Positions 13,706 to 31,321 of a DNA stretch of 64,000 bases are shown piece after piece (the stretch's first letter is position 1; every line of letters begins with the position of its first letter). The position numbers and the translations under genes were made by a program. The notes beneath the pieces are model-generated. The model made no database searches. It had not been told where the DNA came from and worked only from the letters and a program-made list of their open reading frames with translations. The DNA comes from Stenotrophomonas maltophilia. Its GTDB lineage: Bacteria; Pseudomonadota; Gammaproteobacteria; Xanthomonadales; Xanthomonadaceae. The stretch covers positions 4,482,001 to 4,546,000 of the forward strand of contig NZ_LT906480.1 of NCBI RefSeq assembly GCF_900186865.1. The letters are read 5' to 3'.

Positions 13706-14524
13706 TTACTGGCGCAGTTCGCGGTAGGTCGCGGCCGGGGCGGCAATGCCGGGACTGGCGCGCCACGGGTTGATGTCCAGGCCACCACGGCGGGTATAGC
13801 GCGCCTCCACTTCCAGCCATTGCGGCTGGCAGCGCGCAGACACCTCGCTGAAGATCCGCTCAACGCACTGCTCGTGGAACTCGGCGTGCTCGCGGTAGCT
13901 GACCAGATAGCGCAGCAGGCCGGCACGATCGATCTTCGGCCCGCGGTAACGCAGGCTGACCGTCGCCCAGTCCGGCTGGCCGGTGACCGGGCAGTTGGAC
14001 TTCAGCAGTGCCGAAACCAGGGTCTCCTCCACCACCTCACCGGCATTGGCCGAGAGAAAGTCCGCCTGCGGCGGGCCGTAGCAGTCGATCTCCAGCTCCA
14101 GCCCGTCGATGGATTCACCGAGCGGCGTCTCGCGCAGGCCCGGCAGCCCGAACTCGACCTGGACCGGCGCACCGGCACAATCCGACAGATCCGCCACGAT
14201 GCGCACGCGCAGTGCCTCGGCGCTGTCGATGCGGGTGCTGTTGAGGGAGTTGAGGTACAGCTTGAACGACTTCGATTCGATCAGCCGCGGCGAGGTGCAC
14301 GGCACCTGCACGGTGGCCACGGCCACCTGCGGCTTGCCACGCGGGTCGAGCCAGCTCAGCTCGAAGGCGTGCCAGCGGTCATGGCCGACGAACGGCAGCG
14401 CGGCGTCATCGAGGCCGATCTCGGCGCGGGCGCCGCTGCGGGGGATGGGAAACAGCAGGCCGGGATCGTACTGCGACGGGTAACTGACCTCGCGACCGAG
14501 GCTGGAATCCTGTGGGGTGTTCAT
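13706..14524 (-). CDS. queF: NADPH-dependent 7-cyano-7-deazaguanine reductase
   Basis: Catalyses the four-electron reduction of preQ0 to preQ1 in queuosine biosynthesis. At 272 residues it is the long, two-domain (YqcD-like) form. The QueF motif [11 protein letters not shown] carries the NADPH-binding Lys/Ser and substrate-recognition Glu. The nucleophilic cysteine is in [10 protein letters not shown] near residue 185, and [10 protein letters not shown] holds the second substrate-binding region. The start is ATG at 14524 (MNTPQDSS); an in-frame ATG nine bases upstream (MPPM) is equally possible. Other queuosine genes are not in the window. Confidence 0.95.
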
Positions 14525-14616
14525 GGGGGGCATTGTATCGCGCGGACGGCGGGCCTTCGGCCGGGCCGGCCAACGGCGGAGCCCCTCCGTGGTGGTTCAG
14601 GCACGATCTCGGGGTC

Positions 14617-14720
14617 GGCCGGGAGGGTGGGTTGGCTGGGGGCCGCTGCAAGTACGTCCATGTAAGCTCGGTCGCCGCATCCATGCGGCTCACGCCCCCA
14701 GCCAACCCACCCTCCCGGCC
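14617..14720. repeat. Long hairpin element A, copy 1
   Basis: A perfect 26-bp stem (14617-14642 with 14695-14720) encloses a 52-base core. The core is identical base for base to that of copy 2 at 30882-30933 and contains a small GCCGCAT/ATGCGGC hairpin. The stems of the two copies differ at six positions, and all six are compensated on the other arm. Confidence 0.92.
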
Positions 14721-14869
14721 ATGGACAATTTCCCGCGCCACCACGGGAAAGATCAGAAAAATCAAGATCAAAAGCCGATCCTTCAGACGTTCATGACGTC
14801 CGCCGTGCCGACCAACGGTCGGCACCCACCAACAGCAGCGGGCACCAACAGCCCCGGGAAACTGTCGAA

Positions 14870-14971
14870 GGCGGGGTGGGTCCGGTTGAGGGGGTGTCCG
14901 CGGCATGGATGCCGCGGCCAAGCCCCCATGGACGGGTTTACGGCGTCCCCCTCAACCGGACCCACCCCGCC
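14870..14971. repeat. Long hairpin element B, copy 1
   Basis: A perfect 25-bp stem (14870-14894 with 14947-14971) encloses a 52-base core. The 3' half of the core (GCCCCCATGGACGGGTTTAC and following bases) is nearly the same as in copy 2. The inner hairpin CCGCGGCAT/ATGCCGCGG differs from that of copy 2 but is still fully paired. Confidence 0.9.
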
Positions 14972-15046
14972 ATCCCACGGAATGCCCGCTTTTGACGTTG
15001 ACGTTGATTTAGGCGGGTGCAGGGCTGCAAGCCCTGCCGGAAACCC

Positions 15047-16366
15047 TCACCCCGCAGGCGTGCCGGCACCGTGCAGGTAATCCAGGCTCACCTGCAGCAG
15101 CGCGCGCAGTCCGACATCCAGCGCCTTCTCATCCAGCAGGAACTTCGGCGAATGATTGGCGGGCGCCGTCGCCGGGTCGATGCCCACGCTGGTGGAACCA
15201 ACGAAGAAGAACATCCCCGGCACTTCCTTCGCGTACAGCGAGAAATCCTCCGCGCCCATCTGCAGCGGTGGCTCGTAGACGTTGTCCTTGCCCACCACCG
15301 CCTGCAGGCTCGGCAGCATCTTCGCGGTCAGCGCCGGGTCGTTCACCGTGGCCGGGTTGCCCTCCGATTCGTAGATGTCGGTCACCGCCTTCGCACCGTG
15401 CGCGGCGGCGGTGTGTTCGGCCACGTTGCGCAAGTCGGCGAAGATCTGCTGGCGCATGCCCTCGTCGAAGGTGCGGATGGTGCCGACCATCTCCACCTCG
15501 TCCGGAATGATGTTGTAGCGGATGCCGCCGTTGATCGCACCGAAGGTCAGCACCGCCGGTTGCTTGGAGAGGTTGGCGCGGCGGCTGACGATGGTCTGCG
15601 CGGTACCGACCAGATCGGCCGTGGCCACGATCGGGTCGACACCGTTCCACGGTGCCGAGCCGTGCGTCTGGCGACCGATCACCTTGATGCCGAAGCGGTC
15701 CGAGGCTGCCATCAGCGGACCGCCACGCACGGCGATCTGACCGGCCTGCACGCTGGAGAACACATGCAGGCCAAACACCGCCTCCGGCTTGAAGTCGGCG
15801 AACAGGCCTTCCTTCAGCATCAGCGCGGCACCGCCCTCTTCCGGCGGCGGTGCGCCTTCCTCGGCCGGCTGGAAGATCAGCATCACCTGGCCCGGCAGGT
15901 CCTTCTTCATCGACACCAGCGCTTCGGCCACGCCCAGCAGGGTGGCGGTGTGCGCGTCATGGCCGCAGGCATGCATCACGCCCACGGTCTGGCCGCGGTA
16001 CTGGTCGGTGGCCTTGGAGGCGAACGGCAGCCCGGTCTGTTCGGTTACCGGCAGCGCGTCCATGTCCGCACGCAGCGCGATCTTCGGGCCGGGCTTGCCG
16101 CCTTCGATGATCGCCACCACGCCGTGGTGGGCGATGCCGGTCTTCGGCTTCAAGCCCATCGCACGCAGGCGCTTGGCGACCTCGGCCGAGGTGCGCGCCT
16201 CGCGGTTGGACAGTTCCGGGTGCTGATGGAAGTCGCGGCGCCATTCAACCACCTTGGCCTGCAGGCGCTGGGCAGCGGCGGTCACTTCGGGGCGTTGCCC
16301 GTCCTGGGCGTGGGCAACGGCCGGCAGGGTCAGCAGCAGGGCGGACAGCAGCAGCGAACGGCGCAT
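15047..16366 (-). CDS. Secreted M20-family amidohydrolase (aminoacylase/hippurate hydrolase-like)
   Basis: A 439-residue zinc metallohydrolase of peptidase family M20 subfamily D (HipO, AmhX, IAA-amino acid hydrolases), predicted to split N-acyl amino acids. An N-terminal signal peptide of about 20 residues ends in AVAHAQ, implying a periplasmic location. Metal-ligand motifs are intact: ALRADMDALPV, MHACGHDAHTA (near residues 130-140), PAEEG, and FSLYAKEVPGMFFFVG near the C-terminus. The start is ATG at 16366, preceded by GTGGAGA; an in-frame GTG 12 bases upstream is less likely. It diverges from the efflux operon at 16555 across a 188-base gap. Confidence 0.9.
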   Translation of the reverse strand: MRRSLLLSALLLTLPAVAHAQDGQRPEVTAAAQRLQAKVVEWRRDFHQHPELSNREARTSAEVAKRLRAMGLKPKTGIAHHGVVAIIEGGKPGPKIALRADMDALPVTEQTGLPFASKATDQYRGQTVGVMHACGHDAHTATLLGVAEALVSMKKDLPGQVMLIFQPAEEGAPPPEEGGAALMLKEGLFADFKPEAVFGLHVFSSVQAGQIAVRGGPLMAASDRFGIKVIGRQTHGSAPWNGVDPIVATADLVGTAQTIVSRRANLSKQPAVLTFGAINGGIRYNIIPDEVEMVGTIRTFDEGMRQQIFADLRNVAEHTAAAHGAKAVTDIYESEGNPATVNDPALTAKMLPSLQAVVGKDNVYEPPLQMGAEDFSLYAKEVPGMFFFVGSTSVGIDPATAPANHSPKFLLDEKALDVGLRALLQVSLDYLHGAGTPAG

Positions 16367-30798: not shown

Positions 30799-30855
30799 GT
30801 TTCCAGCCAACGGCGCAGCCCCTCGTGGTGGGCGGCGTTCGTCGATCATGGGGTT

Positions 30856-30959
30856 GGCCGGGTGGGTGGGCTGCGCAGGGGCCGCTGCAAGTACGTCCAT
30901 GTAAGCTCGGTCGCCGCATCCATGCGGCTCACGCCCCTGCGCAGCCCACCCACCCGGCC
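30856..30959. repeat. Long hairpin element A, copy 2
   Basis: A perfect 26-bp stem (30856-30881 with 30934-30959) around a 52-base core identical to that of copy 1. Relative to copy 1, stem positions 8, 16 and 19-22 are changed, each with its partner. Confidence 0.92.
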
Positions 30960-31029
30960 ACGGACAGTTTCCGTGTGCGTCCACCACGGAAAAGAAAGAG
31001 AAGATCAAAAGCGGATCGCTTCGCTCTGC

Positions 31030-31052
31030 ATCCACGCATGGCGTGGATCTAC
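31030..31052. repeat. SMAG of the ATCCACGC subtype within the module
   Basis: An ATCCACGC/GCGTGGAT palindrome ending in CTAC (31049-31052). It is absent at the matching position of copy 1, so it looks like an insertion into the module. Confidence 0.75.
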
Positions 31053-31122
31053 CGTGTCGACCAAGGTCGACACCCACCGGCAGTCGCAGTTGACCCACCG
31101 TCACCGGGAAACTGTCGGGGGT

Positions 31123-31220
31123 GGGGCGGTGTGGGGCTGCAGGACCGTTGGCGCCATGGATGGCGCCATCGAGCCCCCACGGACGGGTTTACGGCGTGTC
31201 CTGCAGCCCCACACCGCCCC
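31123..31220. repeat. Long hairpin element B, copy 2
   Basis: A perfect 23-bp stem (31123-31145 with 31198-31220), extendable outward past one T-G pair, around a 52-base core. The stem sequence is almost wholly different from copy 1, yet the core length and the 3' half of the core are kept. The inner hairpin is TGGCGCCAT/ATGGCGCCA. Confidence 0.88.
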
Positions 31221-31238
31221 GCCCAACCCGCAGCAATC

Positions 31239-31281
<43 letters not shown>

Positions 31282-31321
31282 CGCCTCTGCAGGTGCAGGG
31301 CTGCAAGCCCTGCCAAAACAC

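Follow-up and report, generated by a model that had tools for sequence, protein, structure and literature searches.

Introduction

The stretch of Stenotrophomonas maltophilia DNA analysed here, 64,000 nucleotides long and hereafter called the window, holds at 14569..15037 an ordered series of hairpins that recurs at 30806..31313. The question raised by this locus is what kind of object such a composite is: a structured RNA, a palindromic DNA repeat, or the product of a process that simply keeps long palindromes perfect. The original prediction proposed selection for RNA or DNA structure, named template-switch correction as an equally serviceable explanation, and recognised no described family. 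The answer developed below is built on computed properties of the element, namely its covarying structure, its preference for one strand, the consensus of its loops, the number of its copies, the orientation of the pairs and the intergenic placement. From these, we regard the element as real and widespread, and most probably as an RNA with two predicted CsrA/RsmA sites. Its closest known counterpart, the TwoAYGGAY motif, is already known as a candidate; what is new here is the variant, its copy number, its strict pairing and the evidence for one strand.

Architecture of the two composites

Both composites, to which no strand is assigned as a whole, consist of an outer leader, a hairpin A, a variable interior, an inverted hairpin B and an outer tail. 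In copy 1, hairpin A lies at 14617..14720, with the core-forward reading on the plus strand and the proposed RNA on the minus strand, and has a perfect 27-bp stem (arms 14617-14643 and 14694-14720). It scores 90.3 bits (at 4496631-4496706 of the host's own genome, G000) with R1, a covariance model built from 63 copies. The 52-nt core (14643..14694, minus) carries two small hairpins within the outer stem, and their loops read AUGGAC, an ANGGAX motif, at 14656..14661 and AUGGAU at 14679..14684, both on the minus strand. Hairpin B (14867..14974, proposed RNA strand plus) is the same element inverted, with a 28-bp stem (14867-14894 and 14947-14974), an R1 score of 101.2 bits, loop 2 (AUGGAU) at 14905..14910 and loop 1 (AUGGAC) at 14928..14933, both on the plus strand. 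In copy 2, hairpin A (30855..30960, minus; 92.8 bits) has a perfect 28-bp stem (30855-30882 and 30933-30960) and its loops at 30895-30900 and 30918-30923 of the minus strand, and hairpin B (31119..31224, plus; 95.1 bits) has a 27-bp stem (31119-31145 and 31198-31224) and the plus-strand loops AUGGAU at 31156-31161 and ACGGAC at 31179-31184. Each of the four hairpins folds much more stably than its dinucleotide shuffles, with z values of -8.9 to -10.5 (six folds).

Much of what had been predicted for these stems holds. The A stems are 100% complementary in both copies, the A cores are identical over 52 nt, the six A-stem positions that differ between the copies are compensated in 6/6 cases by reading of the sequence, and the B stems are near-perfect, at 96% complementarity each. 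Hairpin B had been described as a separate kind, which it is not: once reverse-complemented, its core belongs to the core family of A. The view that the two cores are the functional parts is supported as well. From the predicted series, the two big hairpins, their order and their orientation stand as the constant part, since AAGATCAAAAGC, the small hairpins and the tail were seen by eye to differ between copies over 40 pairs.

The small interior palindrome at 14805..14825 (GTGCCGACC.../GGTCGGCAC, no strand assigned), which presumably resembles the GTAG-type REPs of Stenotrophomonas, lies outside the conserved element, and interiors differ among copies. By eye, the flanks of many pairs of this genome show a GGAAACTGTC-like box that abuts the 5' side of the outer stem when read on the proposed RNA strand, and the outer flank is of two alternative kinds, CCAACGGCGCAGCCCCTCGTGG or GCAGGGCTTGCAGCCCTGC...AACAGC. 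A scan for promoters of the sigma-70-like type found 0 in either composite. Terminator-like sites number 0 in copy 1 (0.4 expected by chance) and one in copy 2 (0.5 expected by chance), a weak site of 6 pairs at 31230-31248 that starts 6 nt past hairpin B2; the A hairpin of copy 2 has none.

A free outer stem around a constant core

Each hairpin is a three-way junction, in which an outer stem, usually of 22-28 bp (62/66 element palindromes, with a full range of 12-31 bp), encloses the 52-nt core with its two small hairpins. The approximate sequence of the core on the core-forward strand is ACGC[C/T]G[T/C]RA[A/G]nnC-RTCCNT-GnnnGCTYG-[hairpin with CATCCATG]-ACR. Hairpin 1 consists of 3+3 bp with a 5-nt bulge and the loop RTCCNT, and hairpin 2 of 8-10 bp with the loop ATCCAT, both loops being given for this same strand. 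The outer stem is almost free in sequence and the core letters are constant, in loci that range from 37% to 71% G+C.

This fold is supported by covariation. In an alignment of 63 copies (A2; 57 distinct), 95.9% of 1596 cells are paired, both sides have changed in 21/28 pairs, and the covariation score is 0.553 vs 0.163 for shuffled alignments; slid controls leave 33-45% of the cells paired. A second alignment of 39 chosen rows (A4), 34 of them from other genomes, has 94.6% of 1106 cells paired, with two-sided changes in 24/29 pairs. Energy folding of the sense strand recovers the outer stem and hairpin 2 in 4/4 window hairpins. Hairpin 1 depends on covariation, as energy folding of that strand places it in a shifted register with an 8-nt loop in the two B hairpins and does not form it in the two A hairpins. 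G-U pairs are rare in both inner hairpins.

Some small loops in this genome hold longer structured inserts of two recurring kinds, located by short signature strings. They occupy the hairpin-1 loop at L063, L082, L085, L089, L093, L101, L102, L115, L139, L142 and L146, and the hairpin-2 loop at L083, L100, L117 and L125, and both kinds occur in one hairpin of the relative L278; the loop position was read by eye in L093, L125, L139 and L278.

The probable structured strand

The mismatches in the outer stem are unequal between the two strands. Counted on the core-forward strand over 303 distinct arm pairs, they comprise 116 A-C, 113 C-A, 21 G-T and 14 T-G. An A-C on that strand is a G-U on its complement, so that the asymmetry marks the complement, hereafter the sense strand, as the structured one. 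Restricted to 261 hairpins with at least 17/20 standard pairs and to distinct contexts, the counts are 114 A-C/C-A vs 24 G-T/T-G, and the resulting p of 3e-15 is too good because the copies are related rather than independent. Both arm polarities agree (59 v 13 and 55 v 11), which discards a G-rich single arm as the cause, and the excess appears in each set of the 303 arm pairs: the own genome (34 v 11), a Marinobacter-like genus (11 v 3) and the rest (184 v 21). The five stem pairs nearest the core do not show it (7 v 8).

Wobble-tolerant selection on the fold of the complement strand accounts for this pattern, and a strand-blind process does not. A reading of the element as DNA only, which the near absence of G-U from the consensus counts had suggested, was reversed once the mismatches were split by strand, even though the same strand as single-stranded DNA, with G-T wobble, would give a like pattern. 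The predicted selection for RNA or DNA structure is therefore upheld and narrowed to one strand, which is the one carrying CsrA-type loops. Template-switch correction may still help to keep the long outer stem perfect, and it leaves the strand asymmetry and the loop sequences unexplained.

Two predicted CsrA/RsmA sites

The high-affinity Csr/Rsm site is described as an ANGGAX hexaloop placed directly on a stem with a C-G closing pair, the N being looped out (PMC4005645). Among the strong copies of the genome (R1 score of at least 78.7 bits, the next match being at 49 bits), 108/115 have the full 76 nt and could be compared with this site. Loop 1 reads CA.GGA.G, i.e. C[ANGGAX]G, in 108/108; its N takes all four letters (T 47, G 42, A 12, C 7) and its sixth base, X, is C or T in 106/108. 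Loop 2 is CATGGATG, i.e. C[AUGGAU]G on the sense strand, in 107/108, and both loops fit in 107/108. The most variable position of loop 1 coincides with the N of the ANGGAX site.

The protein itself shows a weak association with the element: CsrA (PF02599) was found in 68/73 genomes with it vs 245/296 without (p 0.028). The five element genomes with no CsrA match (G193, G253, G284, G379 and G525) are 75, 88, 67, 98 and 85% complete, respectively.

Relation to TwoAYGGAY and other known systems

At curated Rfam cut-offs, nothing is found at the hairpins, either in the whole window or in 20 element-carrying loci, where two tRNAs are the only matches in each case. The closest described architecture is that of TwoAYGGAY (RF01731), listed as a probable RNA of the human gut, Gammaproteobacteria and Clostridiales (PMC2864571), and for which CsrA binding has been proposed and tandem G-A pairs noted in one stem (PMC4333381). 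The statement that no described family could be recognised is thus right in that the hairpins reach no curated cut-off, and wrong with respect to the architecture, which is that of TwoAYGGAY.

The likeness includes the long, weakly conserved outer stem, the two hairpins in a junction and the occurrence in Gammaproteobacteria, as well as two AUGGAU-like loops on the same strand as in the Rfam model. The multistem junction with two hairpins under the outer stem rests on the covariation described above; energy folding supports it only as regards hairpin 2 and the outer stem. Inverted pairing is also shared, given that five of the six close pairs of RF01731 matches inspected are minus-then-plus and the remaining one (G274, below the cut-off) is plus-plus. 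Direct overlap of RF01731 with the element on the predicted strand occurs in three distant relatives: L447 (55.0 bits), above the gathering score of 43 bits, and L347 (35.3 bits) and L345 (32.3 bits), below it. L447, where the R2 model gives 60.1 bits, was fetched by RF01731 itself.

The two differ, however, in several respects. Hairpin 1 has 3+3 bp and a 5-nt bulge in the window element and a stem of ~15 bp in the Rfam model; loop 1 is strictly AYGGAY in part of the copies only, as its N takes all letters; and the window element falls below the family cut-off and exceeds 100 copies in one genome. RF01731 is missing from the 46 Rfam matches obtained at E up to 5 for 14500-15100, around copy 1. 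Those loose matches are mostly eukaryotic microRNA models, which we took as chance fits to a long hairpin. It is also missing from the host genome at E <= 0.001 (best 7 of 280 candidates scored) and, even at E 10, from L358, L371 and the other hairpin of L345. In the class sample, R2 marks 73 genomes and RF01731 marks 23 (15 over the cut-off), with 5 in common. As to tandem G-A pairs, none were seen in the window copies; some distant rows, e.g. L172 and L187, show by eye an internal loop of TC/TC, which reads GA/GA on the sense strand.

With CsrB/RsmZ-type sRNAs the element shares ANGGA hairpin loops that would sequester CsrA/RsmA. Each of those regulators is encoded by a discrete sRNA gene and has several sites, RsmZ having eight GGA motifs (PMC4005645), whereas the element has two sites and is scattered over intergenic regions. 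A discrete sRNA gene would bring a promoter and an intrinsic terminator, and the composites hold no sigma-70-like promoter and 0 and 1 terminator-like sites.

REPs are palindromes of 20-40 bp that carry a GTAG or CGTC tag, and Stenotrophomonas has SMAG/GTAG families of them (PMC3733652). The element resembles REPs, BIMEs and REPINs, including the GTAG and SMAG families, in being intergenic, high in copy number, palindromic and arranged in inverted pairs, often mutually close. It differs from them as a three-way junction of ~100 nt without a constant tag: no constant GTAG or CGTC stands at the core or stem end in the element alignments. Literature searches on REPs, MITEs, CsrA-binding repeats and Rsm decoys, with most subscription journals outside their scope, gave no title or abstract describing the element, and six core 12- to 15-mers matched the texts of only four papers, all outside this field.

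Copy number, pairing and genomic placement

The block had been described as present twice. R1 instead gives 127 places in the genome, 115 of them strong, so that neither of the observations named as refuting the original prediction applies: the cores are far from confined to two loci, and their arms pair elsewhere too. Two simpler searches of the same genome returned 31 places for the core pattern and 107 matched pieces for the 469-bp block (best 40 of 214 candidates scored). Close pairs, defined as lying within 700 bp, number 40, including composite copy 1, and all 40/40 are '+-', i.e. inverted in one sense; both members are strong in 35, and one is weak in 5. There are also 40 strong and 7 weak single places, several of which seem by eye to have a partner that R1 missed because a structured insert fills one of its loops.

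The strong copies form 80 clusters, and 0/80 lie inside a called gene (gene calls by a simple script, with 60 nt of tolerance at the ends). They stand between same-direction genes in 43 cases, convergent genes in 28 and divergent genes in 9; the 58 gene gaps of this one window, used as the baseline, are 47, 6 and 5, respectively. Convergent gaps are therefore enriched (28/80 vs 6/58, p 0.001). Gene 3' ends beside pairs lie a median of 93.5 nt from the edge of the model (48 gene ends), and 5/40 pairs lie between divergent genes. The strong singles between same-direction genes are unbiased, 7 being sense and 9 antisense, or 8 and 13 when neighbours with a loop insert are included.

The copies are unevenly spread, with 10, 20, 2, 8, 16, 2, 7, 28, 17 and 6 in ten bins of 0.5 Mb (116 places, including one 49-bit match). 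At G000:669857 and G000:696287 (L078 and L079), the right-hand hairpin is interrupted by what is apparently the same insertion sequence.

Distribution and evolution at fixed sites

The element was found in 37/149 genomes and 16/54 genera of the family sample (best 32 candidates scored per genome), in 73/369 genomes and 64/271 genera of the class sample (R2; best 13 scored per genome), and in 33/398 genomes of the phylum sample (best 12 scored per genome), all 33 in the same class as the host. A 43-base core pattern has, among the matches listed, Xanthomonas, Marinobacter, Shewanella, Alcanivorax, Rheinheimera, Oceanisphaera, Saccharospirillum, Sedimenticola and others. Among plasmids (72,556 records), the core of a relative had no match at E 0.01, and the window hairpin matched only 39-bit pieces in 16 records, none of them convincing. 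Neither query had a match in 50,697 phage records, the relative's core had none in E. coli, and a 28-base pattern found 2 stretches in IMG/VR viral contigs.

Beside the gene next to copy 1, at least one model match is found in 8/9 of the closest relatives (gene identity 90-95%) and in 0/13 more distant ones (74-81%); beside the gene next to copy 2, in 7/9 (86-93%) and 0/12 (70-81%), some of the relatives' loci at both sites being cut by contig ends. At site 1, the stems and core types seen by eye differ among close species, and one distant species has the same neighbours and no element. The rho-ubiD gap of the Marinobacter-like genus (81 genomes, 70 loci compared, gene names read from translated ends) varies likewise, holding one hairpin, a '+-' pair, a remnant, another hairpin or nothing. 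By pattern, which missed some second hairpins visible by eye, 26 of the 70 loci have only a plus core (antisense-oriented), 7 both, 5 only a minus core (sense) and 32 none. The sites thus persist across speciation, with contents that vary. Stem, hairpin 1 and hairpin 2 types are found in many combinations, which, together with the different stems and cores at orthologous sites, makes exchange between copies look common. Inverted target duplication was considered as a possible origin of the free stems; no clean gain was seen at the orthologous sites compared by eye.

Two further arrangements were observed. At L366 (220-1584), six tandem 227-bp units each contain one hairpin and a GTAGGAGCGGCTTCAGCCGCGATAAG repeat, which we take to resemble a Pseudomonas-type REP. 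Gaps of the Marinobacter-like genus (L414, L407-L409, L428, L440 and others) hold a different long hairpin family, with GAACGAGGTG-type stems around CCAAAACAATCAGGGAAACCACGTTTTCCGTTTTGG.

Proposed mechanism and alternative explanations

We consider it probable, judging from sequence, that the element is an amplified TwoAYGGAY-type variant lying below the Rfam cut-offs, and that its copies are predicted CsrA/RsmA-binding RNAs near gene 3' ends. In the RNA of the sense strand, the long and nearly free outer stem would present a three-way junction with two short hairpins, each closed by C-G and capped by an ANGGAX or AUGGAU hexaloop, and a CsrA/RsmA dimer would clamp both loops. Transcripts entering a composite from either side would acquire a dual CsrA site in their 3' region, since the inversion of the pairs means that any transcript crossing the composite has the sense-orientation hairpin last; those starting inside and running outward would likewise carry one dual site. 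We infer from these features that the element is transcribed and bound by RsmA, and likewise in which direction mRNA or RsmA would be affected. The effect could be local, on the 3'-end stability of the host transcript, or global, as a sponge, and we make no choice between both.

Several observations count against parts of this proposal. The absent orientation bias of the singles relative to their neighbour genes is left unexplained by a CsrA-type reading and, with the five pairs between divergent genes and the commoner antisense orientation at rho-ubiD, speaks against a purely 3'-UTR role. The missing asymmetry in the innermost stem, the partial energy fold, the rare inner G-U pairs, the lack of a sigma-70-like promoter, the RF01731 misses at L358, L371 and the other L345 hairpin and the five genomes without a CsrA match weigh against the proposal as well.

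These points have to be set against what other explanations can achieve. Strict inverted pairing, high copy number, patchy spread over genera, few G-T pairs overall, and the interior repeats and 6 x 227-bp tandem array, both with presumably REP-like repeats, would suit a REPIN-like non-autonomous DNA element, whose single-stranded hairpin is recognised by a transposase (e.g. RAYT) and whose inverted pair is the mobile unit. We think this unlikely, as one strand is singled out by the mismatch asymmetry (although that strand, as single-stranded DNA, might also form G-T wobble), the loops match a protein-RNA site, and the plasmid and phage records gave no convincing match and viral contigs only two stretches. 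Moreover, the wide '+-' pairs L094 (2001241/2002249) and L183, the only two examined, enclose genes reading as ordinary host genes, and an autonomous mobile element was rejected on the same two.

The placement admits a plainer role. Long GC-rich hairpins between genes, a median of 93.5 nt past the 3' end and enriched in convergent gaps, might merely block exonucleases or help termination as bidirectional transcript ends, with the loops of minor importance; the rho-ubiD site, which holds another hairpin in several species without the core, and the weak terminator-like site next to hairpin B2 fit such a role. It is nonetheless improbable, because a plain stabiliser needs no fixed loop and junction letters, and here these are fixed in 108 copies and common to many genera around a free stem; nor does copy 1 or the other hairpin of copy 2 have a terminator-like site. 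That the element has no function at all, being a palindromic repeat that template-switch correction keeps perfect and that recombination between its copies has spread, agrees with the different stems and cores at orthologous sites of close species and with the many combinations of stem and hairpin types. We hold it to be very unlikely, since it predicts neither the strand asymmetry, nor fixed GGA loops with a free N, nor a core common to many genera.

Implications for Csr/Rsm regulation

Under the preferred reading as TwoAYGGAY-type RNAs, the ~100 copies would, as a set, tie many transcripts to Csr/Rsm, titrate RsmA, or both. A more ambitious and tentative extension is a distributed RsmA/CsrA network, in which more than 100 strand-symmetric 3'-end modules, each supplying a dual CsrA site to any transcript that passes through, jointly form an RsmA sponge across the genome and link read-through between genes to free RsmA, while spreading and exchanging stems and cores between sites in the manner of a repeat family. 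If this network were true, Xanthomonadaceae would hold a large share of their capacity to antagonise CsrA in a repeat and not in an sRNA gene devoted to it.

A high-copy repeat that lacked an explanation has in this way been given a precise hypothesis, for which a single purified protein suffices as a test. The comparison of mismatches by strand is also a general means to separate RNA-level from DNA-level palindromes. Should the proposed reading be right, Stenotrophomonas, Xanthomonas and many marine Gammaproteobacteria would have in their Csr/Rsm regulon a large layer of targets or sponges that Rfam cut-offs have missed.
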